DNA of 64,000 bases from Tribonema minus (taxonomy: Eukaryota > Sar > Xanthophyceae > Tribonematales > Tribonemataceae), in NCBI GenBank assembly GCA_017506865.1, contig JAFCMP010000519.1, forward strand, positions 620,001-684,000, given 5' to 3'. The notes under the pieces are model-generated. The model saw nothing but the letters and a program-made list of their open reading frames with translations. It made no database searches and was not told the DNA's origin. The translations under genes and the position numbers were made by a program. How positions within the stretch are numbered: position 1 is the stretch's first letter; the number at the start of each line of letters is the position of its first letter. Shown here piece by piece: positions 17,601-63,339 of the stretch.

Positions 17601-17978
17601 CCGTCTGTGTTTACCTCTGCGTCGACTGCGCTTTCCACTGGCAACCATAGCCGTGACAGATGCTGTCTCGGTCATTGTTGCGTGGGTGCTGTTATCACCG
17701 GCCTGCGTTACGTCTGACTCGCCATGTTTCCCGGCTGGCTGGCGAGGCGACCTGGCAACGACCGGTTCCCTAAGGGAGAGTTGGTCAAACACCGCTGCCA
17801 GGTCGTTACCCTCTTCTCGGAGGGAGAGCAAGCTGAACGTGACGACAATGTACTGCACTTTTAAATACACAACAAATGCTACAACAAAACACGACACAAA
17901 AGCGGACGTGCTGATGTTGTAGGCTCTGTGTCTGTATTTGTGTGTGGGCCATGTGAGACAGTCGCCTGTGGCGTGCAA
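11697..17978 (-). CDS. non-LTR retrotransposon polyprotein with OTU protease, zinc finger, RT and RLE
   Basis: One uninterrupted frame of 2093 codons; the upstream limit is a TTG, and the first ATG (MTETAS) is at 17675. Domains in order, numbered from the open-frame start: an Arg-rich segment (118-127); an OTU-type cysteine protease with GNGNCLIH (Cys about 242) and the His of VGHFELLVA (about 430); a zinc finger CPLC...H...C (483-523); a second Cys/His cluster near 588-630. The reverse transcriptase spans about 1060-1420, with LDCENAFNSVDR, CQQGDPLGPLYF and the catalytic FLDD at 1324-1327. The C-terminus has a Cys/His cluster and a restriction-like endonuclease core (YRADTVIDPG, then GIVLDTSVRAP). 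It belongs with the R2/NeSL/Dualen-like elements; OTU proteases are known in some of these. The frame looks intact, so the copy may be young. Confidence 0.85.
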   Translation of the reverse strand: MHATGDCLTWPTHKYRHRAYNISTSAFVSCFVVAFVVYLKVQYIVVTFSLLSLREEGNDLAAVFDQLSLREPVVARSPRQPAGKHGESDVTQAGDNSTHATMTETASVTAMVASGKRSRRRGKHRRRTQERQAQCDNSPAPLGQLAPATTPPRGGASAPSAPISGPAKVTTVTVATRIPSTVCHTVTVEEQQDALAKATNYGFSTWHTGLQALHKQALGENTATLARGGELRPVSNVGNGNCLIHTALHGIGSVAVEHGLPAPALVIAMREALLDGMVAYVTQGAGKQGASMSSMRQLTAHAAAQPACTREQFDTYGTRARCLAIEYGTNETDSKDSGHTLLLQRLQEEGVWGRPLGLSVWAIVAAVYAVSVTVWQAKPQATGSTQKSTGLVLAQLMGLPAVFAPATPAQPDCHLDVLWTPPGLYTNVGHFELLVAPAAAPPLPTTMTASATTQADSTHITAPSRTQPRTALQLPQQPEPLRCPLCTLAFWQLGQKEDSKQRGKLSAASRMAPVVAHFNGGSCTRSMLNPEASTSHCQQNPAAAYAKGIRQQVDHDPSGDRAPSGSSTCSTGAHHAKHVQEMSTMYGCTAEDFLRAVRKLSACTGACGLVHMSASAGQRQCALTSPCHTCRRNGSAPTRARPAVPPGQSEGGGAGSDGAAAAAGAAAATPPKLPAVPASGAANSKSSKKRPAATATGAQRRRRTAAAAAPPSSAGSRTQSDSLRLQDSSPPRGTAVGWADMDVDPPDDAASPPPPTTTTSGRPSKPQARASLAWDLSTPSVVHALDQTNEADLLLLRFTTTANPFRTQLQCTQWARLVEHATRLLADATDSAREAARVRLHHGAGAFAHQVSQTLVQRGYRLLHLLAAMAFGRQPEGTGMPPAARLAALLSGDFAELLRKTLSAAAALRAPKPNNAAMASAQTNFDADWTEADSRQQTACAALSGKRRGVGLAAARLEAREACAPADEVTAQVLAAKHPETGTRPGVVDTPMEQVRGLVRDARRHCLHSAGVATTTGPAGSGSPVFESGQAHDHSDRPEDAASAAGRRLEVEAADILSTLSAAGAGKAGGLDGLRYEHLLMAAGPGAPVKAATRPVSSASPGLAGDSESDVMEPAFAHHLAKVFTTLLVEPELLPEQSQRLLRAAALSGIGQKRRPIACSSVWRRLLGSTAARSVKGKISGLLASMSQFGVGYRSGVEHVAARARVWHELYGTTIQLDCENAFNSVDRAAIVRGLMLFCPELLPHFESVYCGDTAPEMRVEVNGEARIICSHLGCQQGDPLGPLYFAVAAAFLLFYPDGVNATPGSMPAYGHSTAEPPAPHCAFLDDLNVLQAAYFDDAAAAGVAEVIRRLAAGGLRVRPDKSLAIAMRGTVFDEAARARLRALDIPFVDTTMPESSQGFTSVGVPVGHPAYVHAAMSKHLVDAGTWRLSWQLAGMARHHLQAAQFILRRSLTKRMGFLARVVDTALSETWLHAFDGFCAWTLERMLHLHGCSTAAAMKSHLLAACTAGDNEEASSGSVLVLPRLGPPELTDIAVPLRASRLPERRGGLGMPLLGLLAPAAYTAQACTTLRPAIIHATVAAGALRLGTDEHGAVTWFAQHSCAIREDQGLPPIIEAVRRSTRALTADGGEKSRTAVAEQLPASLLRWAADTTAAASTLPTAVQAIYAATAVTETVTTEPAPHTHGIVPGAEAAAAAATVPGPQAAAAAAPSTPAKTQTSAEESSCSGGQEDDDDDWEAYADEICRKVVPRRRRGHFTHGLQAGLSNVLRRQYEDCLVEDLEAASAGAVGKPTQAAPIGDSRDTSRRRQQASARVLAQLRSQRASGAMAWMSVPPTANDRPGAAPMSSMAAATMILIAIFIDGWGIQGEVCPWRCSDVSPTSTHAISCPSQHIRGHNATHTAQKRCLQRILRQHHVSIVRNEDASVFKVPGYRADTVIDPGCLHFSSAYRNKGIVLDTSVRAPTASSNLTGRTNASNTDGYAAGVGEDAKVKHHTGTLTSSWAFVPFVQESYGRLGKQTSLFVKELAMHSALCSGGGKADVLRKAGLAKRQILIELSISLARELAERVMAYTRGARMLGCVAAPVSKLLGHSAD

Positions 17979-21500: not shown

Positions 21501-23742
21501 GTCAAAAGTATGTGGCAAGACATGCGAGCATACCGTGGCAACCAGCATGCATTGACCTATGAGTTCATCGCGAGCCATGCTGATATGCCATGAACACCGT
21601 AGCATTGACTTCTGGTGGGGGAGCAATGCAGGTTGAGCTCTGACTCCATACCGCCGCTTGAACTACGTACTTGAACTAGCACAATGACCATATATATACT
21701 AATTCACACAGCTGTCACGGCCATTCACCACGCGCCTCACATCCCTTCACCAGTGTGACACTGATAAGGTGAATACAACTTGAGGTATATCACTCAGGAT
21801 ATGTGTAGACTCTGGTAGCAAGCCTGCCATTGACAACCTGAGCTTCATCGCGCCCTGAGCGGGAATCACAAAGTACACTGCACGCACTCACCTGTTAGGG
21901 AACGTCTCCACCAGGCAGCACATCTCATACGACTCCAGCGTCTGCTCCAGGCACGGGTTCCCGCCGCGCGCTCGTGCGTCCTTATGGTCTGGCGCGTCGT
22001 CCATTCGTGAGTACGCGCGCATGTTGTCGAGCCATGCGAACCCCGGCTCGCCATTCGCCGCGACGCGCTTGCACACATCCGTGTAGTCCATGCCGAGCGT
22101 CGCCATGACGCTGTTGTTGGACGTCCAGCCGTAGCTCGCGCGGTGGGGGTTGACGTCGTAGTCCTGTGCGTTGAGAGTGGTGTGTGGTTGGTGAAGTTAA
22201 CGGTGGCGAGCGCTGTGCATGCAACGGCGATGCCTGCAGCGTCACAAATGTACACCAGACGACACCAGACCAGCATGTACACATGGCATGCGAGAGCGGT
22301 CCCAGCTGACTGCAAGACCGAGGCAGTGTTTGTCGTCTGGCGCAACTTGAAGGATGTCTTTTGCAATCACTGCTGTCAGCTGCTATGTACCCAAACACAC
22401 TGCCCATGCGCTGCCACATGAAGCGACGACTGACCTTGAGGTTAATGTACTCGGCGCTGTCCGGGTCACCAAACGCAATCTCCGCCGTGCGCCGCACGTT
22501 GCCCGCCACCACGCACTTGCCGATCTTGTTCATCACGTCGACGATCGCCGTAACCGTAAGGTCCCGCCCCGCTAGCGGCTCCAGAGTCTCCATCACGTCC
22601 CTGTGCAGCTCCAGCAGCGGCGCGGGTCCCTGGCTCACCCCCCCAAACCCCCTTATCGGGCTCCCCGCAGGCCGAACCAGGCTAGAGTCGAATGTCGGCA
22701 GCGGCGCGCCGGTGAAGTATGCGTTGAGAAGCACCCGGAGGCTCTCCACCCAGCCCTCGCGCGAGTCTGCTATGACGTGCGTGGAGGGATGTTGATGTTG
22801 AAGTTTGCTGCCGGGTTTGTGGACGCCTACGGCACCGGCGCCCTTGGTGTCGAAGCCGACGCCCACGCCGAGCATCGACGCGTCCATGAGGAAGCAGAAG
22901 GGGCCAGTGGGGTCCTCCGCCATGTTGGCAGTGGACACGAAGGCGCAGTTGTTGAGCGCTGCGAACAGCCGCCGCTCCGTCGTGAGCTTGGAGCCCATGG
23001 CCCAGAGTCCGCGCCCCGGCGGCAAGAACTTCATGTTGAAGATGCGTGTGTACATGTCCTGGGCCTCCGCCTGCGCGGCGTCTTCGCTCCAGGGCAGGCC
23101 ACCTGTGAGCGTCCACTCCTTCTGCATGCTGAAGGTGCCGTTGACCACGCGCTGAACGGTCTGGTACCACTCCTCCTTGACGTCGGAGTCCTCGTTGACG
23201 TATCTGGAGTAGGTTCTCCGGTACACTAGCTCGCCGAGGCCATTGAAGCCGAAGGGAGGACGCACGGACGACCAATGTTGAACAAAGGCAGGGTTGAGTT
23301 CGAACTGGCACATCTGCTGCTGCTGCTCCGGGCTAGCGTCACTGCCCGGAATTGATGCGCGCATTACTTCCAGCCCTCGCAACTGCGAATGGTCGCCATT
23401 CAAAGGCCCATCGAAGGCCCATTTGCCGTTCACACCAGGCTGATGCTGCTGCTGCTGCTGCTGCTGCTTGCTGTCCATGTCGCTGCCGCTGCTGTGGATT
23501 CCGGTGCTGCGTGCAGCCTGATGCCTCGATGAAGCAGTGTTTGCGCTGCTATCTAAACTATCGCTGACCTCGCTTTGGCATTCGCCGCTGGCGTCCTCGT
23601 CTGGATGCTCCTGCCTGAATGGCTGTGCGCTTGCACATCGAAGCATGCGATCTGGCCTATGTCCAGCAGTCGCACTGCATCCGTGAGCTCTGCGTATCAA
23701 ATTACTGCCGACTGCTCGATATGACACAGCCCGCAGAGCCAT
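18541..23742 (-). CDS. class II (adenosylcobalamin-dependent) ribonucleoside-triphosphate reductase
   Basis: Makes deoxyribonucleotides by a B12-dependent radical mechanism. Exons are 23742..22435, 22163..21892, 20831..20267 and 18933..18541; all joins are in phase and give 845 residues, against about 740 in the Lactobacillus enzyme. The extra is an N-terminal extension of about 140 residues: a basic start (MALRAVSYRAVGSNLIRR) that could be an organelle-targeting peptide, then a Gln run. Key residues are present: a redox Cys in AALNNCAFVS (266); the thiyl-radical Cys and Glu in NPCLE (507, 509); the second redox Cys in MCCLVE (518); and the C-terminal shuttle pair FCDTDAC (803, 808). Other signatures are FLPPGRGLWAMG, IKPSGTVSLL and YQLKGVSFLPR. 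The gene is divergent from the 24022 gene, 279 bp apart. Intron 2 holds a retroelement tail and TTAGGG-like repeats; intron 3 holds exon-edge copies. Confidence 0.93.
19930..20300. repeat. three tandem copies of reductase exon 3 end plus splice donor
   Basis: The block CTGATTGTCCGCCCAG and its flanks occur near 19955, 20112 and 20267, a period of about 156 bp. The rightmost copy is the functional exon 3 end and donor; the other two lie inside intron 3 and have drifted. The unit also contains GACTTACTTCTATCTAC or close variants. Confidence 0.75.
21151..21172. repeat. telomere-like CCCTAA repeats in reductase intron 2
   Basis: About three units of CCCTAA with slight drift, inside an intron. 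Confidence 0.7.
21845..21885 (+). mobile_element. retroelement 3' tail fragment
   Basis: TCGCGCCCTGAGCGGGAATC followed by ACAAAGTACAC matches the end of the copy A-C tail, in the opposite orientation. It lies in reductase intron 2, about 6 bases from the exon 2 donor. Confidence 0.5.
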
Positions 23743-50066: not shown

Positions 50067-50268
50067 CGTAGCTTGAGGGCTACAGTTGCTGCTGACAATA
50101 TGGACTTTCTCAACATCCCCGGGACTAGCACCTAGTGCAGCAGCAGCAGCAGCAGCTGCTGCTACTGCTCTGCTGTTCGCTGCAAGTGTGTTGCTGCTTG
50201 CCTGTCTCTCCGCGGCTGCTGCTGCAAGGTCCAATGCTTGAATACTCCTGCTTCCCGCACCAGTTTCG
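50067..50268 (-). pseudogene. interrupted Ala-rich host gene, downstream part
   Basis: Continues the reading frame of the 62326-63339 block across the LTR element: discounting the element and one TTCG copy, the two flanks read through without a break (…IASPE then TGAGSRSIQAL). It ends in an Ala run and DVEKVHIVSSN before a donor at 50067 (TACG/GTGAGT). No domain is recognised. Confidence 0.6.
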
Positions 50269-50681
50269 TGATACGGCTTGGGGGTGTATTCAGACAGTTA
50301 CAGGCAGTTACACCTCACAGGTTGGCACAGGTCTCAGTAGACCTGTGTAGTCGGTGTAGACCTTGACATGTGATTGAGAGCTGGCCTGACCTTAGTTGAA
50401 GGCAGGTGCAACTAGTTGGGTCACATGCCAAAGGGCACATCAAAGTAGCATGCACAGCATCAGAACCCCCCCTGCAAGCAGCAAGCCCGAACCTTGCTGT
50501 GCCAGCCATCGTCCAGCCCCAAGCCTTCCGTCTCTCAGCAGCAGAATAAAATATCCGGTAAGCGCATCGCGTTTCCTTTCGCATAACATTTCATTTGAGT
50601 TCTCTGAAGCGTGTCTACTTGTTTTGCTCTTCCAGCTTGCTTGTTTGCATTCATGACAGCATCACAAGGTAAGCCGCTTCA
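50269..50681 (+). repeat. 5' LTR
   Basis: 413 bp, TG...CA. It includes AATAAA near 50545 and splice-like sites: GTAAGC at 50558, TTCCAG ending 50635, and AAG/GTAAGC at 50669. The last could pair with GTGTGCAG at 51656 just before the polyprotein start, as leader splicing in some LTR elements. Confidence 0.92.
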
Positions 50682-50684
50682 ATT

Positions 50685-50702
50685 TGGCACCCGAAGACAG
50701 TC
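50685..50702 (+). other. putative primer-binding site
   Basis: TGGCACCCGAAGACAGTC begins 3 bases after the LTR. TGG at this place fits complementarity to a tRNA 3' CCA end; the tRNA was not identified. Confidence 0.6.
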
Positions 50703-50883
50703 CTTACCTCGTGCTAACCCCGCCCGCAAGGGCAGCAGCGTGGTGATCGCTGTTCAATGTATCACTGCTCGAATCGTGTCAAAGCCTTTCGAGGACCCAG
50801 ATTACGTAAAGCGATACGTAAAGAACAGCCGTGGGAAGCGAGTTAAACGTTAATCACGCTAGGTTCCTGCACTAGAATGCTTA

Positions 50884-50925
50884 TGACGGGGCGGCGTAGT
50901 GGTGCACCGCTACGTCGTGACCCGC
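50884..50925 (+). other. palindromic hairpin in the leader
   Basis: GGGCGGCGTAGTGGTGCACC and its near-complement CGCTACGTCGTGACCCGCCC form a long imperfect hairpin with GTGCAC at the tip. A role in RNA dimerisation or packaging would be a guess. Confidence 0.45.
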
Positions 50926-51668
50926 CCCCTTGATGTCAACGACGCAGTGCGTGCTGCACGGGTCTGAGCAGCAATGAACATGCAACTTCATTTAGCTGGC
51001 CTTATTCTGCGGCTCATCTGTGGTTGATGAACGTGGTCACGTGGACCCATATAGGGCATCGAGGGTAGACCCGTGCGGTAGCGCGCTGTGTACACCAGCT
51101 TGCGCGCCGTACACTATCACGTCACGAACGCACCAGAGTCTCCCGGGAGAACGCGCGGAGATCCTTTAGGGGGGACACGTGATAGCTCGTGTATCAGAAG
51201 TCACAGAAACGGTAGTGACTTGTCATAGACAGTGTTAAGTGGTTGCACTCGAGAAGTCTCGAGAAAAAGCGCACAAAGGGGCATGCGCTGCCACTTTTCT
51301 GGCTGTAACGGTTGCCTATGACTAGAATAAAAACCCTACCGCATGCTCTTCCTTAGTAATTTGCTCTAAAGCTGATATGACTAGCTTTTTGCAAAGAAGG
51401 GGGAGAGGAGTCTAGCTTAAGAGCAAAGCGATGCAATTTTGCTTCATGATTGTACGGCCGCAATTGTGTTGCAGAATTGACAACGCGGTCGATCTGTACA
51501 ACTGCTATGTCAAACTGGCTGGCTTGCAGTTCAGAGTGCCCTAGTAGCATCAGACCTCGTGCAGAGGCGTGCGGGGCATAGACGGCTCGTGCGCTGACAA
51601 TTTAAAATCATGGTTTTGTCGTCGCACTCAGCTTCATGCGCGTGAATCGTGTGCAGGATACACCATAA

Positions 51669-54600
51669 ATGGTCAAGACTGACCATGGCTCCAAGAAGCC
51701 AACGAGTGGGTCAAGCCGCAGCGGAGGTGTTAGTGGCGGTGCTAGGCCTGCTGGCAGCACTGCTGCTAAGAGCAACAAGGGCGGTCAGCGCTCCGCTACG
51801 CGCCCCGCGCCACGCTCGGGTGACAAGCCGTCGAGCCCCCCTCCCCGGCCCGCGGCAGCGTCCGCAAGACCCAGCCAGGTCGGTGCCAGCGCGCCCGACA
51901 CGTCTGCCTCGGTACGGTCCACAGAATCAGTAGTCACTGGTGCCGCACCTCCTTTTATACGTAATTTCGCTGAGTCCAGCGACGAGCCCGGCGGTGGCGG
52001 CTCAGAAGCCGAAGCCATAGTGGCAAGGCAGTTACGTTTGAGGCAGAAAAGAGAACAGCTTGCAGCAATGGGCATTATGCTTAGCGAAGCCCAGGTAGCA
52101 GAAGGCGAGGAAGCTTTTGCACGTGCAGCTGTTGAGAAAAAACTCGCACCAACGAAAAGCCCACGCAAGACATCGCGTGCAGCTGCAACAACCGCGCCAG
52201 TTGTGCCGGTAGCCGCGCCAGTTGTGCCGGCAGCGTCCGCGAAGTCTGCGGCGCCAGCACCTGCGAAGTCCACAGTGCCAGTTGCAGCACTGGTTGCGCC
52301 CGCGGTGGCCCCACCTAAGGTCGCGCGCAGTCAGCCGGCCAAGACGTCGGTTACGCGCGGTGCACGGGTCCCAGTTGCGGCGCCTGAAGTAGCACCGGCG
52401 GCTCCGACGCCTCAGAGCTCCAAGCCATCAGCTAGGCTAGTGGCTCCCACATACTATACTGCACCAGCGAGGGCCCCTGAAGCCTCAGATAAATCGCCTG
52501 TGACGCAGCCGCGTCGGGGTGCAAGTGGTAAGGCGCGGCGTGTGCCAGTTGTGCCACGTAGCGTGCCAGTCGTGCAAAGTTCGCCAGTTGTGCCACGTAG
52601 CGCGCCCGTCATACCGCGAAAGCCAGTTGAGCAACAAGCGGCAGAGCGACGGAGGGCAGTTAGGCAACTGCTCGAGTCTTCTGAGTCATCTGGTGATGAG
52701 GGTGGTGTGCCCTTTGATCCTGAGGGCACAGATGAGGCTTATGACCAGTGGCGTGAGGGCATCGAAGCTCGCGTCGAGGCACATAAGCGAGCTGCCAAGG
52801 CCGCCAAAACGGCTGCAACGTTCGCCGAAATTCACGAGCGTGCCCTTTACGAACGCCTTGGCGAGCTCCAGCTTCGCGTCACCAGAGCTCCTAGTGAGAG
52901 CAAGAACATGGTGAAGAACTCACTGCTGCCGATGGCGCGGACGTTCGCTGCGGAGCAGGCCGAAGAGGTGCGCAAGCATAATGTTGCACTTCTGGAAAAA
53001 CGTGGTCATGACTTCAAAGCTAGCCAGTTCGGCGAGCTGCTGACCATAGGTGAACACCGTAAGCGGTCCAATAGTTGGCATCGCTTCGCCTTCGGCACAG
53101 GCGACGGTGAGGAGGCGGAACTCTGGCGAATGCTAAGGGAGTTCGAGAACACGCCTCTGGTCACCGAGGAGGCGCGCCTAGCTGCGGACAGTTACCCGCG
53201 CAGCTTGGTGACGCACCCGTTCCTCAACACTGACGGGCACTCCGACACGTCGGACGACGACGCAGCCGGCGCAGCTGCGAGTCCGCGTGAAGATGGCGCA
53301 GTGGCCGGCGTAGCCACCAGCGCATCGGCTCTAGGTGAGAGCATTAGGACTGCGGGGGCAGTAGAACCCTCGTACTCCTCAGTTGCCATGACGGCGCGGA
53401 AACCCAAAGTTGACTTGAGGGGTTTCGGCGGCACTGGCGTCGTCATTGTAACGCAAGTAGGCAGGCTTGAAGCTTCCATTAGAGCTTTTGAGCGTAGCTG
53501 CGACACGCGTGGCGTGCCCAAGTCGGCCTACTCAGAAGCGCTGTTGCAGAGTCTGACCAAGAGTCAGTACGCTGATCTGACCAGCGCAGTCACCAATGAG
53601 CGCACGGGAATGCTAGAAACTCGTGCGTTTAGTGATTTGTCTTATGAGCAGATGGTGCAATGCCTTACGGCAGCGTACGATAGCACATCTGCCAGGCAAA
53701 TAGCACTTCAAAAGTATCATGAACTCACGCGTACCTCCGGTACCAGCCCCGAAGTGTGGGGCAGGGAGGTAGTTGCAGCCGCGCACGACGCCGGCTGCGC
53801 GGACAACCAGCAAATTGTTCGTATGAAGTTCGTTCATGAACTGCCATTATGCTGCCGTCAAGAAGTAAACGGCATGTATGAGACCTGGGATCTAAAGAAC
53901 ACCGCTTTTCCCAAGGTCGTGGCAACTGCCCAGCAAAAGTGGCAGGCAGCGCCTATTGACGAGCGCGAGACTCGAAATGTTGTGTCTGCAATGGCCGCGG
54001 CACACATCTCAACCCCCCCCTACTCTGACACAGGCAAGCGCCCTGCCAAGGATGGGTGGAGCGTGGTCAGTAACGACCATCGCTATAACAAGAAGAATAA
54101 GCTTTCGGCTGTTCGCGCTGTGTTGGCGGGGCTGAGCGCTAACGAGCGTCGCCAGCTTGGAGTCAGCGACCGCGCGCCGCAGGGCAAGGCTAGCTCCGCA
54201 GGCGATAATGGCGGCGGCGGAGCCAAGCCCCAGAGCAACTTCAAGTGTCTTGGCTGCAGAGTGAACCAGGGAGACTGGGACACACTTATGCGGCACAAGA
54301 CTACCTGCCCTCAGTGCATTGCGCACCGAAAGAGGATGGCAGAAAAGCACCGCCAAGGTGAATCACACTTGCAGTTGTCTGCTGCCTTGGTAGGAAGTGA
54401 CTTGCCTGCTGCAAGTTCAGCATCAGCAATCAGTGAATTGCCTGGTGTAGTTAGAGCAGATGCATGTTCGGCACAGGTAGCTGAGCATGCCACTGACGCT
54501 GTTTACGATGTCTCTTTGCGCGCACAGATGGCGGCAATTGAGGGTGGGCCAGAGCCACCACCCAGAGTTATCAAACACGCGTCTATCTGCTGTGGGGCGC

Positions 54601-57600
54601 TAGGAGGCGCCATAGCTGGGGGTAAGTTGACCTCTAGAGCAGGTTTTGTAACACGCACAGTGCTTGCAGTTGACAAGAATGTCAAGGCAATTGAGGCTCT
54701 GCATGAAGTTCATCCAGAAGTGCCCACAATGACTGCATGCATGACTGATGCGAAGGTTGTTGCACGTCTTCTTGACGAGAAACCTGACATCACCACTATC
54801 TCCCCGCCCTGCACAGATTTTTCGGCAGAGGGCAAGAAGGTCGAGGGCGAAGCTGCCGAGTGCACGGTCCATGCCGCACGGCTCATCGTGCGGGCCAAGC
54901 TTCGGGTGGTGTTGTATGAGAATGTGCCAGGAGTGCTAGTGTCACGCGCGTTTGCACGCGCAGTACGCATTCTCAAGTCGGCTGGTTACATGCTGTACAT
55001 TGCCAGGTTAAAGGCTTCTGAGTTTGAAGTACCTTGCAGGAGGCAGAGGGTGTACATTGTCATAGTACCAGCAGGGGTGGCCTCACGTGTGGCGCTCCAG
55101 AGGTTCGGTGCGGTAATAAATACCAAGCGTTTACAAAGCAGACCCACATCTGTTCGCTCTCGCTTGCGCTGCCCCGAACGCACATTCTTCTTGCAACCAC
55201 GCAGTGCTCAGCACCCTGGTGTTTTGGATGCTGATGGCTTGTTGCCTAGCCCAGTGCGCAGACTGCCTGGTAGGCCCACTGCGAGTTATGTTGCACATGC
55301 AAAAGACGCTGGTCCAGTGGCATCTGCCCGCTTGCTGTCGCTTGCGGAAATGGCAGTGCTCATGACGTATTATCATGAATTACCGGCGAGTGCATGCAGT
55401 AGTGATGTACGGCGTTACATTGCAGACTTGTTCATCCCAGAGATGGCATTTCACTTGTTCGTGGCAATTGAGGCCTCGGGCCTGTGCACACTGCCAGAAC
55501 AACAGGTACGTTTGCCGCGTAGGTCAGACTCTACGTTAAGGCATTCAGTTGACTGCCCGCCCCCATCTTGGTTGGCTGGTCAGAGTGGTTCGCTGGTGCA
55601 GGCCGCTACCGCGGTACACGCAGCGCCCACGTCAAGTGCACACTGCTCAGCAGCAGTGGCGCGTAGCATACATGCAAAGGCGCATGATGCAGGGTATGCA
55701 GAGATACCCATAATTCCGATGCGCAGTGCATGGGAAGAGCCAGAGGTAGACTTGGCTGTGGTGCAGCCCGGCATGGCTGACATCGTGGAAGTCGATGACT
55801 CTGACTCAGGGTCTGACTCTGAGTGGGACTCACAGTCAGTTATGAGCGTTTGCAGTAGCGCAGACGACATGGACATTGACACAGAAATCAGTGCTCCACC
55901 CATTGCGGCCGCAGCGGCACGCAAGAAGCTCGGCGGCGGTACAGACCCGCGCCTTGCCCCAGGTGAGTTGAAGGCAGCGCTCAGGCGCGCTGGCCTTGAT
56001 GCTCAGTCTCTAGGCATATTAGACCATGTGCCAGGTGTCAGCAAGTTAGACACAGCCCCACCAGTGAGTATGGCAGAGACAATTAAGAATCTCACAGAAG
56101 AGATCACAAAACCGAAGGAACCAGTCAAGTTACCTCATGTAGGCCTTGCAGTAGGGTCCCCTGAGCCTAGCTCGGTAGAGCGCTCCAAGTCGGAGGCTCC
56201 AGTGGAGTACATACGCCCAGTAGCCGGTGTTGTACCTCCAGGGCAGATGTTTGTGTCCGCGTCGTTACGCGTACAAAGCAACTCTCAGACGCCCAAAGAA
56301 CTCTATGTGCGCGCCATGGTAGACTGCGGTGCGACCGTAACCATCATGGGCAAGCGCATTGCAGACAAGCTCCCCAACAGCTATGTATGTACACCTCAGC
56401 AAGGTGACTACACTGAGATCCTCTTGGCAGACGGCAAGACGTCGCTGCAGATCAGTGGTGTGGTCAATGCATGGCTGCGGTTTAAGAACAAGATGTTCTT
56501 GCACAAGTTCTATGTGGTGAACGCACCCATGGACGTGCTCTTAGGTACGGATTTCTTTGCCCCGCATGGCTCAGTCATCTCGTATCACGGCGGTAGCCCA
56601 GCCTTCTTCCCAGGGGGACTAAAAGGTGTGGCCATACGCCCCATGCACGACAAGAATCGCGCAGACAACGCGAACGCGCGTGCGGCAGCACTAGCCAGTT
56701 GCAAGGGCAATGGCAGCGCTGAGAGCACTGAGGCACCAGACAAGCCTCAGCAGTGCTCAGCTAGGATGGCATATAACACTGTACTGGCACCATCGTCGGA
56801 GACGATTGTGGAACTCACGCTGCTACCAAAGCCAAAGCGCGTGCAGCCCTATGAGGCATTGCTCATACCAGAAGAGACAGTGACTACAGAAATGATGAGA
56901 GGCAAAGGTGTTAAGGCAAATATCACCGCTCTCACCGTAAATGCCAGCGGCACGATATACGCTACATTGAGCAACACTTCAATGTACCCGGTTTACGTGC
57001 GCCGCAACACGTATTGGGGAAAAGTGACTCCAATTAAGGCTGATGATCTGCTAGAAGTGCAGACAGCTACTCAGAAGGCTCTAGAAGCCAAACTGCTAGT
57101 AATAGCAGCCAAAAGGCACTCTGAAAATGCTAAGTTAGTGGCAGAATTAGCTGCTAGCATAGGCAAGACTGCCAAAGAGGTTGCACAAGAAGTGCAACGG
57201 CTGGCAGACCTTAGCCAGCGCCACAAGGACCAGCTAGAAAACTGCACGGATGCAGAGCTGGAGGAAATCCTTGTGAAAGATGGCAGGCTTGCGCCTCATT
57301 TGCAAGGAAGGGGGAAAGATGGGGTACTTTTAAAAACAAAAGCACTTGACATGCTAAAAAAGCACAGGAATGTCTTTGCTAAGGACCCTAAAAACCCTCG
57401 AGTCACTCAGCATTTTGAGATTGATGTTGACACTCAGACGGCCGAGCCGGTGGCGGACAAGGCACGCCATTGGGCTTTCAAAGAAGCCGAGTACATCATG
57501 AAACAGATTCAGATGATGGCAAAGCGCCAACAGATTGAGCCATCAGCTAGTGCGTGGGCAAGCAACCCAGTACTAGTGGTTCAAGGCGACAAGATCCGCT

Positions 57601-60600
57601 TCTGCATAGACTTCAGGAAGTTGAATGCGGTCACGAAGCGTGATAGTCATGGCTTAGGCAACATGGATGACATGATGCGGGCTGTGCAAGGTGCCAGGAT
57701 TTTATCTTCGTTAGATCTGGCAGCGGGTTACCATCAGATCCCGCTGGCGAAGACGGCTAAGGCCAAGACGGCCTTCAGAGCCCCAGACGGCTCGTTGTGG
57801 CACTACAAGGTGGCGCCATTCGGGCTGGTGAACTTGCCAGCGCAGTTCACGAGATTGATGCACCAAGTGCTGGGAGATGCCTTAGGCTCCCACGCGCTAG
57901 TGTACATAGATGACGTGTTGGTGTATGGCACGGACATCGAGGAGCACATCGAGCAGTTAGATGATGTTCTTGGCCGCATAGGCGCGGCGGGCATGAGTGT
58001 ATCTCGCCCAAAGTGTCAGCTATTTCAAGCTGAAGTCAAGTTCCTAGGCCATATAGTTGGCGCCGCTGGAACAAGACCAGACCCTGACAAGGTCAAGGCC
58101 ATGCTTGACATGAGCCCCCCACTGAAAGGCGGGGTACCAGACAAGCAGTTGGTACAAGTGGTTATGGGAGTGTTTAACTATTACAGGCGATATGTACCCG
58201 ACTTTGGGGCGATATCAGAGCCTATAGTAGCCCTGACCAAGAACAAAGCAGTCATGGTTTGGGGGTCTGCGCAAGAGCGGGCTTTCAAGCGGCTGAAGAG
58301 TGCCATGTGCGACAGTCGCATAGTGATGCACCCAGATTTCAGTTTGCCTTTCGTATTGTACACCGACGCCTCCAAGACGGCGACGGCAGGTGTGCTTACA
58401 CAGTTCAGACCTGTGAGTGAGGTCGAAAGGGCAACAGCGGGACAGCCATATGCTCACACGGGCAGGCGCCGCATAGCTGAAGGCGAGGAGGTCAGAGAAG
58501 TAGTCGTTGGCTACTTCAGCAAGCTGAACTCTGAACCCGACGCGAAGTTAGGAGCGACGGCAGTAGAGTGTCTGGCAGTAGTGCTGGCGCTCAACCACTT
58601 CAGGCCTTACATTTGGGGTAACCCCGTTACAGTGGTCACAGATGCCGCTGCGCTCAGGTGGCTGTTGACGTTGCAAGACTACAACGGCAAGCTACTAAGA
58701 TGGGCCATGCGCATACAGGAGTATGACGTTACCATTCAGCACAGGCCTGGCAAAAGGAATGCCAATGCTGATGCCCCATCCAGGCTGCCACAGCAGGCAG
58801 AGTTAGATGCTGAGCGCTCTACGGAGCCAGCAGACGAACAGTGGCCAGACGCAGTCCCGAGCATGGACGCACCGCCGTCAGGTGTGCGCTTTGCGGACGA
58901 GGCCACGAGAACGCACAAGGTGGCCGACGTGAACAGCTGTCGTGGGTACACGGCGGACGCACGTTACGGGCCAGCGTTCAAGTTCAACGAGGCCGTCGCC
59001 ATATCAGGCGCGGTGGCCGCTAGGTTAGCCGCTCTGACAGCTGTGGAGCTAGCACAGTTGTTGGACAGAAGGCTAGATGACTCCACGGTGGAGGAAGCTG
59101 AGGTTGATGAAGTTGAGATCAACACAGCGTATGCAGAGCCAGTCAATAAGTACACCGGCTCGTGGGAGCATTCCCAAGCGCAGCGACTCTTAAGGCAGAT
59201 CGCATGCGACAGGCGACGCAGCATCAGCTCAAAGAGGGCCAAGTGCAGCGTCACCACGGCTCAGCCGGCGGCAGACTCATTGGAAGAAGGAGAGATTCCA
59301 GAGGTAGAAGCTGCTGCTGATGCAGAAGAGGCAGACGAGCCACCGGATGGCGAAGCTGTTTTAGGCAAGCGCAAGAAGACGCTGCCAAGGCCAGAAGTGG
59401 TGCAGTTGCTGAAACGGGTGGCCGAGGGAGACTCGCCTGCCACGCCAGCAATGCTCAGCAGAGCCGCATTTCTTGAAGTTCAGAAAGCGGACGGCTTCTG
59501 TCGAGCAGTGAGCAAGATGCTCGTTGAGGGTGACATACCCGAAGGCGCGGAGCTAGCCGCTCACGTCTTAGCACAGAGAGAGCAGTATACCATCGAGGAA
59601 GATGGCCTCTTAGTGCACAGTTCAACAAGCCACCCTAAGAGAGGTATGGTGTTGTTGCAGTGGGTCGTGCCAGTGGTGCTACGAACCCTAGTCATGCGTC
59701 TAGGGCATGATGACGCGAGCGCTATGCATTGCGGCATAGGCGCTACGCACACGCGTATATTCGAGAGGTATTTCTGGCCTGGTATGGGCGCGGACATACG
59801 AACGTACGTGCAGAGCTGCATGACATGCCTCGAGCGCAAACGCGCCAGCTCCACTCAGTACAGACGGTGGTTAGCTGAGCCCGTGCGTATGTGGCAGCGG
59901 CTCAACATAGATATCACAGAGCCTGGTATACAGTCCACGGCAGGGCACAGATATGTCCTGACCATAGTGGAAGCAAGGTCCGGCTTCGTGTGGCTCTCGG
60001 CCATGCACGGCCAGGGAACGCGCGATGTTACCCCGCACCTCATGACAGTGTTCCTTGAGATTGGCGCGCTAGTGGAGGAGCTGTGCTCTGACAAGGGCAA
60101 GGTCTTCCTAGGCAATGTGGTCACAGACCTTTGCAAAGCGTTCAAAGTGAAACGCATAGAAACCAGTGCCTACCACCCCCAGACCAATGGTGTGGCGGAG
60201 CACGCAAATGGTCGTGCCAAGAAGGCACTAGCATCCTGGGTCAGCGCTCAACAGACCAACTGGCACGAGGGCTTAGAGCTTGTGCAGTTCGTGCTGAGGA
60301 CAACGCCCAGAGGTGAAACAGGTTTAACACCCTTTTTCTGTGTGTACGGTCGGGAAGCTTCACTGCCACATGATGCATTTATGCACGAGGATGGCAGCAG
60401 GAAGTTGGACCTACACGAAGAGATTGAGCACAAGTTAGATATGCTTGAGCTTGCAGACAAAGTGGTGTCAAAGGCGCTGCAAGTGCGCGCCCAGAAGATC
60501 ACCAAGCGCAATGAAGCTATTAAGCGCGCGGTGAAGTTCGCCGTCGGTGACTATGTCATGATACGGCTACCCAGGCAAAGAGACAGGTCGGCTGCTCTTG

Positions 60601-60788
60601 ATGCCAGGTATGTGGGGCCTTGGCAGATCGAGGCTCGCACAGGCGAATCAGGCCTCTCATTCATCTGCAGGATGATGGGCAGAAGAGTTAGACACACCAC
60701 AGCTCATGTTGAGAACATGAAGCCCTTCCACATGAGGCCTAGTGCCATGTTGGAGCCAGGTGTGCACGCCATGCTAAGCCCCCGATAA
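51669..60788 (+). CDS. Ty3/Gypsy polyprotein with internal C5-cytosine methyltransferase
   Basis: 3039 residues from an ATG. Residues 1-560 are Ala/Pro/Ser-rich with acidic and coiled parts; about 590-800 resemble gag; a zinc finger (CLGC...H...CPQC) is at 858-890. A C5 methyltransferase follows (970-1290): motif I ICCGALGGAIAGG, motif IV SPPCTDFS with catalytic Cys 1048, motif VI ENVPG (1084), motif VIII RRQRVYIV (1124), motif IX ARLLSLAEM, and motif X near RRYIADLFIPEMAFH. Next come an aspartic protease (MVDCGATVTIMG, 1552), reverse transcriptase (YIDD, 2079), RNase H (LYTDAS, 2233) and integrase with an HHCC finger (2680 on) and D2748, D2808, E2844. All key catalytic positions I checked are present. 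The methyltransferase lies in the same frame as the rest, so it is part of the element and not a neighbouring gene. Confidence 0.93.
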   Translation: MVKTDHGSKKPTSGSSRSGGVSGGARPAGSTAAKSNKGGQRSATRPAPRSGDKPSSPPPRPAAASARPSQVGASAPDTSASVRSTESVVTGAAPPFIRNFAESSDEPGGGGSEAEAIVARQLRLRQKREQLAAMGIMLSEAQVAEGEEAFARAAVEKKLAPTKSPRKTSRAAATTAPVVPVAAPVVPAASAKSAAPAPAKSTVPVAALVAPAVAPPKVARSQPAKTSVTRGARVPVAAPEVAPAAPTPQSSKPSARLVAPTYYTAPARAPEASDKSPVTQPRRGASGKARRVPVVPRSVPVVQSSPVVPRSAPVIPRKPVEQQAAERRRAVRQLLESSESSGDEGGVPFDPEGTDEAYDQWREGIEARVEAHKRAAKAAKTAATFAEIHERALYERLGELQLRVTRAPSESKNMVKNSLLPMARTFAAEQAEEVRKHNVALLEKRGHDFKASQFGELLTIGEHRKRSNSWHRFAFGTGDGEEAELWRMLREFENTPLVTEEARLAADSYPRSLVTHPFLNTDGHSDTSDDDAAGAAASPREDGAVAGVATSASALGESIRTAGAVEPSYSSVAMTARKPKVDLRGFGGTGVVIVTQVGRLEASIRAFERSCDTRGVPKSAYSEALLQSLTKSQYADLTSAVTNERTGMLETRAFSDLSYEQMVQCLTAAYDSTSARQIALQKYHELTRTSGTSPEVWGREVVAAAHDAGCADNQQIVRMKFVHELPLCCRQEVNGMYETWDLKNTAFPKVVATAQQKWQAAPIDERETRNVVSAMAAAHISTPPYSDTGKRPAKDGWSVVSNDHRYNKKNKLSAVRAVLAGLSANERRQLGVSDRAPQGKASSAGDNGGGGAKPQSNFKCLGCRVNQGDWDTLMRHKTTCPQCIAHRKRMAEKHRQGESHLQLSAALVGSDLPAASSASAISELPGVVRADACSAQVAEHATDAVYDVSLRAQMAAIEGGPEPPPRVIKHASICCGALGGAIAGGKLTSRAGFVTRTVLAVDKNVKAIEALHEVHPEVPTMTACMTDAKVVARLLDEKPDITTISPPCTDFSAEGKKVEGEAAECTVHAARLIVRAKLRVVLYENVPGVLVSRAFARAVRILKSAGYMLYIARLKASEFEVPCRRQRVYIVIVPAGVASRVALQRFGAVINTKRLQSRPTSVRSRLRCPERTFFLQPRSAQHPGVLDADGLLPSPVRRLPGRPTASYVAHAKDAGPVASARLLSLAEMAVLMTYYHELPASACSSDVRRYIADLFIPEMAFHLFVAIEASGLCTLPEQQVRLPRRSDSTLRHSVDCPPPSWLAGQSGSLVQAATAVHAAPTSSAHCSAAVARSIHAKAHDAGYAEIPIIPMRSAWEEPEVDLAVVQPGMADIVEVDDSDSGSDSEWDSQSVMSVCSSADDMDIDTEISAPPIAAAAARKKLGGGTDPRLAPGELKAALRRAGLDAQSLGILDHVPGVSKLDTAPPVSMAETIKNLTEEITKPKEPVKLPHVGLAVGSPEPSSVERSKSEAPVEYIRPVAGVVPPGQMFVSASLRVQSNSQTPKELYVRAMVDCGATVTIMGKRIADKLPNSYVCTPQQGDYTEILLADGKTSLQISGVVNAWLRFKNKMFLHKFYVVNAPMDVLLGTDFFAPHGSVISYHGGSPAFFPGGLKGVAIRPMHDKNRADNANARAAALASCKGNGSAESTEAPDKPQQCSARMAYNTVLAPSSETIVELTLLPKPKRVQPYEALLIPEETVTTEMMRGKGVKANITALTVNASGTIYATLSNTSMYPVYVRRNTYWGKVTPIKADDLLEVQTATQKALEAKLLVIAAKRHSENAKLVAELAASIGKTAKEVAQEVQRLADLSQRHKDQLENCTDAELEEILVKDGRLAPHLQGRGKDGVLLKTKALDMLKKHRNVFAKDPKNPRVTQHFEIDVDTQTAEPVADKARHWAFKEAEYIMKQIQMMAKRQQIEPSASAWASNPVLVVQGDKIRFCIDFRKLNAVTKRDSHGLGNMDDMMRAVQGARILSSLDLAAGYHQIPLAKTAKAKTAFRAPDGSLWHYKVAPFGLVNLPAQFTRLMHQVLGDALGSHALVYIDDVLVYGTDIEEHIEQLDDVLGRIGAAGMSVSRPKCQLFQAEVKFLGHIVGAAGTRPDPDKVKAMLDMSPPLKGGVPDKQLVQVVMGVFNYYRRYVPDFGAISEPIVALTKNKAVMVWGSAQERAFKRLKSAMCDSRIVMHPDFSLPFVLYTDASKTATAGVLTQFRPVSEVERATAGQPYAHTGRRRIAEGEEVREVVVGYFSKLNSEPDAKLGATAVECLAVVLALNHFRPYIWGNPVTVVTDAAALRWLLTLQDYNGKLLRWAMRIQEYDVTIQHRPGKRNANADAPSRLPQQAELDAERSTEPADEQWPDAVPSMDAPPSGVRFADEATRTHKVADVNSCRGYTADARYGPAFKFNEAVAISGAVAARLAALTAVELAQLLDRRLDDSTVEEAEVDEVEINTAYAEPVNKYTGSWEHSQAQRLLRQIACDRRRSISSKRAKCSVTTAQPAADSLEEGEIPEVEAAADAEEADEPPDGEAVLGKRKKTLPRPEVVQLLKRVAEGDSPATPAMLSRAAFLEVQKADGFCRAVSKMLVEGDIPEGAELAAHVLAQREQYTIEEDGLLVHSSTSHPKRGMVLLQWVVPVVLRTLVMRLGHDDASAMHCGIGATHTRIFERYFWPGMGADIRTYVQSCMTCLERKRASSTQYRRWLAEPVRMWQRLNIDITEPGIQSTAGHRYVLTIVEARSGFVWLSAMHGQGTRDVTPHLMTVFLEIGALVEELCSDKGKVFLGNVVTDLCKAFKVKRIETSAYHPQTNGVAEHANGRAKKALASWVSAQQTNWHEGLELVQFVLRTTPRGETGLTPFFCVYGREASLPHDAFMHEDGSRKLDLHEEIEHKLDMLELADKVVSKALQVRAQKITKRNEAIKRAVKFAVGDYVMIRLPRQRDRSAALDARYVGPWQIEARTGESGLSFICRMMGRRVRHTTAHVENMKPFHMRPSAMLEPGVHAMLSPR

Positions 60789-61670
60789 GTGGAGGAGCTA
60801 GCAGATGGTGAGAAGTTATACAGAGTTCTGGACCGCCAAGCGGGCCCCAATGGCTCGTGGCAGTACAAATGGCAGTCCATAGATGGCAAGTCACATGCGT
60901 GGGTGTCAGAGGATGACATGCTGCAAGAAGTGACGCCATGGACCTTAGATGCTTTTCACGCGCTCTATGAGCTGCGCAACGAAGGAAGGTTGCCGGCATA
61001 TGCCATCAGGCCCACACCTAAGGAGGATGCTGGCATGCGCCGAGAGAGCGCGCTGCAACTCTATCCCATCGGCACGGCGCTGGTCAGGGAGCACAGAACG
61101 GTAGTGGGCGGCCCGATCACTTACGTGTGGGGGGCCGTGAAGAACTTTGTGTCACCATACTGGAGGATCAGATATGAGGATGGTGAGTGGGAACAGATGA
61201 CCCGTACACAGGTCAAGTCTGCCATACAGTTGGCAGAGGCAGTGCGTGACAAAGCCAAGAAGTTGCAGGCGCAAAGCGCGCCGGACAGCGCGAGTAGTGC
61301 AAGTCCCAACTCTCAGGTCACGCGAGGTCTGCCATCTTCCCAAACTAGTTCTGAGGCAAGCTCAGCCCAAGATTCTGCTCGGCCGCAGATCTCGCTGGTA
61401 AGGCTGCCCAAACTGCCATCTGATTTCGGATCAGACTTTGAGGGTGAAGTGATCTGGTATCACTTTCCAACAGGCTGGAGCCGCGGCGTCCTGGGTGAGT
61501 TTTACCCCGCCAGGTCGCAGTTCACGTTTGATGTACTATTCGACGGTGAGAAGACTGTCAGGCGTATGCGCTTACGTCCGGGTGACTACCGCACGCCAAA
61601 AGACAGCCCATACTCATCATGGAACGTGCTCGCCGCTCGCAGTATATCCTCAGAGGAGAGTGCGAAGTAG
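60789..61670 (+). CDS. chromodomain-like ORF of the LTR element
   Basis: A separate ORF of about 293 codons directly after the polyprotein. Its first 60 residues look like a chromodomain: LYRVLDRQAGPNGSW, then YKWQSIDGKSHAWVSEDDM, with the aromatic residues that would form a methyl-lysine cage. A second block near the C-terminus (EVIWYHFPTGWSRGVLGEF, FDVLFDGEKTVRRMRL) has a Tudor- or chromo-like barrel pattern. In chromoviruses such domains sit at the integrase C-terminus and guide insertion to marked chromatin. How this ORF is expressed is not clear, and I see no ATG at its upstream end. Confidence 0.65.
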   Translation: MEELADGEKLYRVLDRQAGPNGSWQYKWQSIDGKSHAWVSEDDMLQEVTPWTLDAFHALYELRNEGRLPAYAIRPTPKEDAGMRRESALQLYPIGTALVREHRTVVGGPITYVWGAVKNFVSPYWRIRYEDGEWEQMTRTQVKSAIQLAEAVRDKAKKLQAQSAPDSASSASPNSQVTRGLPSSQTSSEASSAQDSARPQISLVRLPKLPSDFGSDFEGEVIWYHFPTGWSRGVLGEFYPARSQFTFDVLFDGEKTVRRMRLRPGDYRTPKDSPYSSWNVLAARSISSEESAK

Positions 61671-61898
61671 TTGTGGGGACTCAAGTTGAGTCAAAGCTGA
61701 GGCCGGCGACTCCCTTTTCCTGCAGAGAGGATTTCCCTGACTAGCAGGTTTGCCTCCCAGGTTTTTAATGGGGTTTCCAACCAGTTCTATATTGGCCTCC
61801 ATGCTTAGTAGTGCACTTAGTGCGAGCATGCTGCAACTACACTAGGGACCGCGATCTGCTGCTTCGAGTTCAAGTCCGCATCGAGGGCGATGCTCAGC

Positions 61899-61910
61899 AA
61901 AGAAGGGGGA
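61899..61910 (+). other. polypurine tract
   Basis: AAAGAAGGGGGA ends two bases before the 3' LTR, the expected place for plus-strand priming. Confidence 0.8.
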
Positions 61911-61912
61911 TC

Positions 61913-62325
61913 TGATACGGCTTGGGGGTGTATTCAGACAGTTACAGGCAGTTACACCTCACAGGTTGGCACAGGTCTCAGTAGACCTGTGTAGTCGGTG
62001 TAGACCTTGACATGTGATTGAGAGCTGGCCTGACCTTAGTTGAAGGCAGGTGCAACTAGTTGGGTCACATGCCAAAGGGCACATCAAAGTAGCATGCACA
62101 GCATCAGAACCCCCCCTGCAAGCAGCAAGCCCGAACCTTGCTGTGCCAGCCATCGTCCAGCCCCAAGCCTTCCGTCTCTCAGCAGCAGAATAAAATATCC
62201 GGTAAGCGCATCGCGTTTCCTTTCGCATAACATTTCATTTGAGTTCTCTGAAGCGTGTCTACTTGTTTTGCTCTTCCAGCTTGCTTGTTTGCATTCATGA
62301 CAGCATCACAAGGTAAGCCGCTTCA
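61913..62325 (+). repeat. 3' LTR
   Basis: 413 bp and identical, by eye, to the 5' LTR; followed by the second TTCG. Confidence 0.92.
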
Positions 62326-63339
62326 TTCGGGGCTAGCGATGGGTGCCGCATCTGCTATGGCAGCGGCTTGGGCAGCTGCCATCTCCTTTGTCCTGGTTGC
62401 TTGCTGTGGTGCACTGCTGACCGTCACGGCTAGGGCCGCAATGTTGGGAATGGTAGTATGACAAGCCGCAGGCGAACTTGAGTCGCCGCCCGGTGCTAAC
62501 TGTGAGTGCGTGGCCGCTATGTTCAAGCCGCTGACGGTAATGTTGTCCTGCGCTGCTGCTCCTGCTGCTGGTGCTGCTGGTGGCTGCGTTGCGGGCATCG
62601 CAAAACTACGATTCATGTTTAACTCCTCTGCTACAACCTTTACCTCCTCTTCAACGACATGCTTTGCTGCTGTTGCTGCTGCTGCCCCTGCTGTTGCTCC
62701 TGTTGTTGCTTCTGGTGTTGCTGCTGCTGTTGTCTCACATGCCCGCGCTGTGGCAGCTGCTACTTGAAAAGTGAACTTGTGGGAAATTCTCTGCACCTCG
62801 GGGTCCGCCAACGCTGTCCTCATTGCTGCCGCTGCCGTCAACATAGTCTCAAACTGCGCTATCACTGCTTTTATATTATCGGGCTCATCGGTTTGTGCCG
62901 TTTGTGGCAGGGACACCGAGACTCCAGCGCCCTTGACTGCCACATTAGCAATACTGCCATTTAGAGCTGTGCACCTCTGCTGGCCCAGCCTCCTTGCTGC
63001 TGCTGCCTGCGCCAGCCGCTGCAATTGCAGCTCCGCAGCAGCTGCTGCTGCCATGGCGTCAGCAATGGCCTGCTCCTCCGCTGCCTCTGCTGCGTCGGCT
63101 TCATGCCGCAGATGTTCCTCGGCAACAACAACGAGAGCAGCTGCTTTGACCGCCGCCACAGCGGCTTTATTGGCCAGGCGGCACTGTGTCTCCGCTGCTG
63201 CTGCATTCAGCTCCGCTTGCACCTCCGTCTGTTGCATCTCCGCAGCGGCATCTGGGCCTGCCACACACTGCTGACATCGACTAAGCTCATGGCTCTCACT
63301 GTTATTGACCGGCATTTTAGAGCAAACTCTACTGTCCAT
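62326..63339 (-). pseudogene. interrupted Ala-rich host gene, upstream part
   Basis: Open frame from the ATG at 63339 (MDSRVCSK; another at MPVNNSES) to the edge of the LTR element, about 338 residues; the frame is open slightly further upstream. The first half is a charged Ala-rich helix (EVQAELNAAAAETQCRLANK, EEHLRHEADAAEAAEEQ), probably coiled coil. The middle holds the least simple block (DEPDNIKAVIAQFETMLTAA, VQRISHKFTFQVAAATAR), and then Ala/Thr/Pro runs follow. No family recognised. The insertion of the LTR element on the opposite strand splits the coding exon; the frame resumes at 50264. Confidence 0.6.

Follow-up and report, generated by a model that had tools for sequence, protein, structure and literature searches.

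A C5-cytosine methyltransferase domain in the Gag-Pol frame of Ty3/Gypsy-type retrotransposons of Tribonema minus

A 64,000-nucleotide stretch of the Tribonema minus genome (contig JAFCMP010000519.1, positions 620,001 to 684,000; hereafter the window) contains a single Ty3/Gypsy-type long terminal repeat (LTR) retrotransposon at window positions 50269–62325. Judged from its sequence, a complete C5-cytosine methyltransferase is built into the Gag-Pol polyprotein of this element, after gag and before the protease. Other families of this genome have it in the same place. Transposons are usually silenced by cytosine methylation, and one that carries its own methyltransferase is a paradox of which few cases have been described. 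Retroelement-borne C5 methyltransferases are known already; what appears to be new here is the placement, together with an unusual scale and diversity. Several divergent families carry the enzyme within one compact genome, and at least one copy is recent, with identical LTRs. The system allows a test of whether the enzyme shields its element, keeps it in check or remodels the host methylome, and of whether it was captured once or several times.

The uninterrupted frame at 51669–60788 encodes 3039 amino acids and matched the Pfam families DNA_methylase, RVT_1, RT_RNaseH and Integrase_H2C2, which bears out the first-pass annotation of a methyltransferase in one frame with a Ty3/Gypsy polyprotein. 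DNA_methylase (PF00145) was matched at residues 984–1131 with E = 1.2e-16. The position proposed for the domain, 54576–55536, was right; we place it at about 54561–55628. All of the motifs that had been named were located, including the catalytic Cys: motif I (SICCGALGG, 54582–54608), motif IV (SPPC, 54801–54812), motif VI (ENVPG, 54918–54932), motif VIII (RRQRVYIV, 55038–55061), and stretches resembling motif IX (55332–55370) and motif X (55419–55448). Pfam by itself covers motifs I–VIII, and motifs IX and X and the target-recognition region come from an alignment of divergent copies and the predicted fold. In a structure comparison, the predicted model showed the enzyme fold across model residues 23–336; its alignment up to residue 336 suggests that motifs IX and X close the fold. 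Motif X usually has Asn, and the window copy has Asp at the aligned position. The PC, ENV and RxR signatures of motifs IV, VI and VIII were unchanged in all eight aligned domain sequences. The motif string was legible in one frame at 47 of 51 loci tested; the misses, L001–L004, have these motifs with other letters, and their status as retroelements is unsupported. Chance motif matches were rejected on the Pfam E value, the predicted fold and the divergent relatives. A host gene beside the element was also rejected, because in the window and at 12 of the 20 loci read the domain and the reverse transcriptase (RT) lie in a single open frame.

The features of the element are as follows.

50265–50268, no strand: left target-site duplication TTCG, read in the flanks (4 bp; chance alone about 1/256)
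50269–50681, + strand: 5' LTR, 413 bp, TG...CA ends, exact direct repeat
50685–50696, + strand: candidate primer-binding site TGGCACCCGAAG, 3 bases past the 5' LTR, with no tRNA match identified
51669–54245, + strand: Gag region by position only, an Ala/Pro/Ser-rich N-terminus and then a capsid-like part
54246–54317, + strand: Cys/His cluster CX2C-X12-H-X3-C-X2-C in a nucleocapsid-like position, spacing read by eye
~54561–55628, + strand: predicted C5-cytosine methyltransferase domain; catalytic Cys in SPPC, 54801–54812
56307–56558, + strand: retropepsin-like protease, DCG active site; PF13975 gag-asp_proteas, E = 2.2e-4, below the curated cut-off
57588–58058, + strand: reverse transcriptase, YIDD at 57903; PF00078 RVT_1, E = 1.2e-26
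58335–58724, + strand: RNase H; PF17917 RT_RNaseH, E = 7.2e-22
59667–60179, + strand: integrase, zinc-binding domain and catalytic core; PF17921 Integrase_H2C2, 1.5e-16; PF00665 rve, 2.1e-5, below cut-off
60606–60629, + strand: RYVGPWQI, read in the sequence, which we take to be a GPY/F-like integrase C-terminal module
60786–60788, + strand: in-frame stop, absent from the other copies read
60789–61670, + strand: C-terminal pol extension, 293 codons continuing the pol frame, a weakly chromodomain-like and then a Tudor-like region
61899–61912, + strand: candidate polypurine tract AAAGAAGGGGGATC, adjoining the 3' LTR
61913–62325, + strand: 3' LTR, 413 bp, identical to the 5' LTR
62326–62329: right target-site duplication TTCG, a copy of the left one

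The order gag–protease–RT–RNase H–integrase is that of Ty3/Gypsy elements, with gag assigned by position and the protease and the integrase core below the Pfam cut-off; the direct LTRs, their TG...CA ends and the target duplication agree with it. The best PDB match of the polyprotein was Ty3 Gag-Pol (E = 7e-81), and the integrase matched PFV integrase chains in the PDB (5e-18). The protease region contains the motifs DCG and LLGTD. A Pfam search of the 3039-residue frame gave no gag match, and the Cys/His cluster, taken for a gag zinc finger in the first-pass annotation, is not a canonical CCHC knuckle. The two LTRs are identical, as expected of a recent insertion. A genome search with the 413-bp LTR scored 40 places among 143 candidates, and those 40 were 99–100% identical.

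The extension lies in the frame of pol, with one stop between them. Eight other copies were checked at this junction; six hold it exactly, and all six have a sense codon there. The 293-residue downstream open reading frame is therefore the end of pol. It had been described as a chromodomain-like reading frame of its own: the resemblance survives in weak form (CDYL2 chromodomain, E = 0.13), and the separate frame does not. No Chromo match was returned by Pfam, and PTM_DIR17_Tudor stayed below the cut-off (E = 0.0078). The fold model of the extension was poor, with a predicted local distance difference test (pLDDT) score of 45. The extension of a second family, B, is 42% identical to that of the window.

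In the 158-Mb assembly, PF00145 gave at least 123 matches (123 of 378 candidates scored). Merging these with protein queries from five sub-lineages yielded approximately 326 methyltransferase loci on 204 contigs, a number that includes L001–L004, that is too low in so far as some of the weakest rows were left out and only the best-scored candidates were used, and too high in so far as fragmented copies may have been counted piecewise and small contigs may be alternative haplotypes. Many copies elsewhere in the genome thus carry the methyltransferase block. The position of the domain was compared with 149 RT loci among those with the highest RVT_1 scores (150 of 1416 candidates scored; the RT of the window scores too low for this set). 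At 105 of the 149, a methyltransferase lay 2409–3294 bp upstream on the same strand. The two controls, the mirrored interval downstream and the opposite strand up to 4.5 kb away, gave no such case; the 44 unpaired loci are not to be equated with loci lacking the domain. With fewer methyltransferase rows, 35 of 123 were paired, and both controls again gave 0. We also read 20 loci of up to 10 kb each, picked for their methyltransferase match. Methyltransferase and RT occurred together in 18 and within one open frame in 12 (17 and 11 from the joint reading, plus L039 by Pfam); the two without RT were L031 and L037.

These loci fall into several families. For family A, that of the window, 20 copies were fetched, 18 of which are 98.7–99.5% identical in nucleotides to the window's over the compared piece; a decayed copy (L037) stands at 98.6% and an older one (L030) at 89%. 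The methyltransferase of family B is 32% identical to the window's, and its order gag–methyltransferase–protease–RT–RNase H–integrase–extension matches that of the window element. In family C, with a methyltransferase about 22% identical to the window's, L039 has a single frame of 1733 amino acids that covers methyltransferase, RT, RNase H and integrase. Lineages D and E, read in the methyltransferase part, are taken as putative retroelement lineages. Further families, recognized by position only, have domains 47–50% identical to the window's and frames of up to 3184 amino acids; another set, likewise by position only, has domains about 23–25% identical to that of lineage E, ahead of the top-scoring RT loci. 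At C311:6724, an RT lies in an open frame of 6208 amino acids, roughly double the normal length; this element may be tandem or nested.

In profile searches of the PDB with these domains, the matching chains were those of DNMT2, bacterial enzymes and DNMT1; up to E = 0.1, none belonged to DNMT3. DNMT3 was also missing from the 50 matches listed in each of two structure comparisons, an absence that excludes nothing. The suggestion of the first-pass annotation that this is a separate capture may be right: no DNMT3 chain was matched among the PDB chains, and the KnitGypsy domain is of the DNMT3 type (PMC5890265). DNMT2 was the first Foldseek row for the predicted domain. DNMT2 is an RNA enzyme, the tRNA C38 methyltransferase, and has the tripeptide CFT as its signature. 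This tripeptide was absent from all eight retroelement-lineage domains, in a set of rows that held no positive control, and identity with DNMT2 was rejected on this ground. A profile for the RFD domain of a host DNMT1 had no match in this genome, nor in any control genome, so that its silence here is uninformative.

Phage records gave four matches, 26–31% identical to the window's domain. A search of viral contigs with profile A2 produced 81 pattern matches, none of them confirmed. With profile A3, the best 80 of 145 viral relatives and 71 prokaryote loci were taken as the outgroup pool, and 32 of 148 with a usable frame were placed in the tree. The tree thus held 8 retroelement-lineage rows, 3 other rows from this genome and 32 prokaryote or phage rows. 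The window family, L006, B and E formed one clade (95/98), and C and D another (100/99). All eight retroelement-lineage rows together received just 52/78, with long branches flagged, so that the retroelement domains may go back to one capture or to several. Two viral-contig frames of 600–635 amino acids (L052 and L053) had unusually high profile scores of 307–314 bits, and perhaps comprise two methyltransferase units. The loci L001, L002 and L003 (contigs C223 and C181) are intact phage-type C5 methyltransferase frames of 367–390 amino acids. L002 and L003 are near-identical, and two of the three share one 2.1-Mb contig. Their CpG observed/expected ratio is 1.04–1.16, as compared with 0.76–0.96 for the copies retrieved from families A, B and C; an endogenous virus or transfer from bacteria possibly brought them in.

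As to function, we consider it somewhat probable that the domain travels in the particle as a part of Gag-Pol and methylates the element's cDNA or its fresh insertion, leaving new copies marked in advance. The methyltransferase would be translated as part of Gag-Pol and enter the virus-like particle with RT and integrase, where the protease may release it. There it would meet the cDNA ahead of integration and could methylate cytosines of the cDNA, or later those of the fresh insertion and its surroundings. Such methylation could shield the cDNA, influence the chromatin at the insertion site, or hold the element's activity down to what the host tolerates. Both the step from predicted fold to function and the marking by the element of its own copies are what we infer.

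Selection on the domain was assessed through the ratio of non-synonymous to synonymous substitution rates (dN/dS) for pairs with more than 15 changes. The ratio was 0.16–0.27 in family A (5 of 6 pairs), 0.11–0.14 in family B (7 of 28 pairs, all with L050 and so not independent) and 0.23 in lineage E (1 of 1); the only pair of family C and all 15 protease pairs of family B fell short. These values indicate constraint. Several results weigh against the proposed function, however. The family A ratio is not below that of the adjoining linker (0.14–0.20; 3 of 6 pairs) and exceeds that of the protease (about 0.05; 3 of 6), so constraint on the domain appears not to exceed that on the linker and to fall below that on the protease. 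Among 19 close family A copies, 43 private substitutions were found; the domain took 11 non-synonymous changes, 4 synonymous ones and 1 stop, which reveal no constraint, and recent copies apparently decay freely, as expected after insertion. Private C-to-T changes affected 10 of 434 CG sites and 16 of 1453 other cytosines, which is not significant (Fisher p = 0.096). DNMT2 scored slightly highest in the PDB sequence profiles. When the RT pairing was repeated with fewer methyltransferase rows and a 7-kb limit, 63 of 149 RT loci had an upstream partner and none a downstream one, and two had one on the opposite strand. The KnitGypsy domain, the closest architecture, was inactive in yeast, a result its authors called inconclusive (PMC5890265). 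The CpG observed/expected ratio is 0.46 in the LTR, 0.81 in the element and 0.91 in the rest of the window.

The enzyme may instead act in trans on host chromatin or competing elements, either silencing them as a weapon or limiting its own carrier. Such effects are plausible given the hundreds of loci, in several families, that encode the enzyme, and host-wide effects and self-limitation are discussed in PMC5890265. The domain keeps a constant spot before RT (2.4–3.3 kb across the 105 pairs), which speaks for transport within the particle, and we regard action in trans as rather unlikely. An RNA methyltransferase, modifying the primer tRNA or the genomic RNA inside the particle and not DNA, would agree with DNMT2 being the top PDB match by sequence for both profiles and the first by structure, and RNA methylation has been raised for SymbioLINE elements (PMC5890265); this we judge improbable. 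Least likely of these three is a passenger domain, captured once, dead or near-neutral and harmless. The neutral look of the private substitutions and the equal constraint on the linker would suit it, yet the catalytic motifs are invariant among domains just ~20–37% identical to the window's, dN/dS is 0.11–0.27 between subfamilies, and open frames exceed 3000 amino acids in several families; its chances seem slight. An assembly or contamination artefact deserves practically no weight: many copies do lie on small contigs, some maybe alternative haplotypes of one locus, but the window copy lies within a 779-kb contig with complete LTRs and a target duplication, and others are on contigs over a megabase.

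A wider form of the proposed self-methylation is conceivable, although we hold it to be doubtful. A non-DNMT3 methyltransferase would then be a standard module of most Ty3/Gypsy families, captured before they split and kept by selection; self-methylation would be normal, and the parasites would encode much of the host's methylation capacity.

Some further observations concern the window and the genome at large. A frame at 21985–23742 (– strand) contains a ribonucleotide reductase domain of the B12-dependent type (class II; RNR_Alpha, 5.7e-37), which is uncommon in eukaryotes. Two long frames at 4320–7859 and 11700–17978 (both – strand) matched RVT_1 weakly (8.8e-11 and 6.6e-7); they are likely other retroelements, at a guess LINE-like. 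The assembly gave 92 chlorophyll-a/b-binding matches, in keeping with a photosynthetic eukaryote. Short RuBisCO large-subunit matches at C334:714136 and C112:516888, with one TGA each, are perhaps nuclear plastid DNA. Three TTAGGG-like units had 10,128 overlapping matches, at the end of contig C2 and scattered in C1, and the reversed control had none. This telomere-like repeat differs from those of the Klebsormidiophyceae, the host group of KnitGypsy (TTTAGGG, TTTTAGGG and TTTTAGG; PMC7046594).

With few subscription papers covered, our literature searches turned up no Ty3/Gypsy element described as having a non-DNMT3 C5 methyltransferase between its gag and protease. Methylase-encoding Ty3/Gypsy and DIRS elements are reported from several groups including green algae, adenine and cytosine enzymes not being separated (PMC6338049), and earlier hints are credited to Iyer et al. 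2011 by PMC5890265. PMC12344493 repeats the streptophyte and dinoflagellate retroelement cases; it names "ChloroDNMTs", from chlorophytes and charophytes, and orphan DNMTs. DNMT6-like enzymes are described in Chlorophyta (PMC10538959), DNMT3 was not found in the green algal transcriptomes searched in PMC9998398, and an N4/N6-type methyltransferase occurs in a DNA transposon (PMC12477816). A term search of PMC8226300 did not return the word "methyltransferase".

Among known systems, phage and bacterial C5 methyltransferases (M.HaeIII, M.HhaI, phrog_116) have the fold and motifs in common with the window's domain, but they stand alone, whereas the latter is embedded in a polyprotein. Chromoviruses have the same gag–protease–RT–RNase H–integrase order, a GPY/F-like module and a C-terminal extension; the window element differs by the inserted methyltransferase, and its weakly chromodomain-like extension is unconfirmed as a chromodomain. 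KnitGypsy-Dnmt3 of Klebsormidium nitens (de Mendoza et al. 2018; PMC5890265) is likewise an intronless, multi-copy Gypsy element under purifying selection with a C5 methyltransferase in the polyprotein frame. Its domain, however, is DNMT3-related and lies inside Pol, and its repeats are DIRS-like, in contrast to the position between gag and protease and the ordinary direct LTRs and target duplication found here. In Symbiodinium, SymbioDIRS-Dnmt3 and SymbioLINE-Dnmt provide the other precedent for hundreds of retroelement-borne DNMTs in one algal genome, in several structural families and with catalytic residues kept (PMC5890265). The SymbioDIRS domains carried out de novo CG methylation in yeast, self-methylation of cDNA was proposed for them, and the SymbioLINE enzymes form an orphan lineage (PMC5890265). 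The carriers there are DIRS elements with a tyrosine recombinase and LINE elements, whereas those of T. minus are Ty3/Gypsy elements with a DDE integrase.

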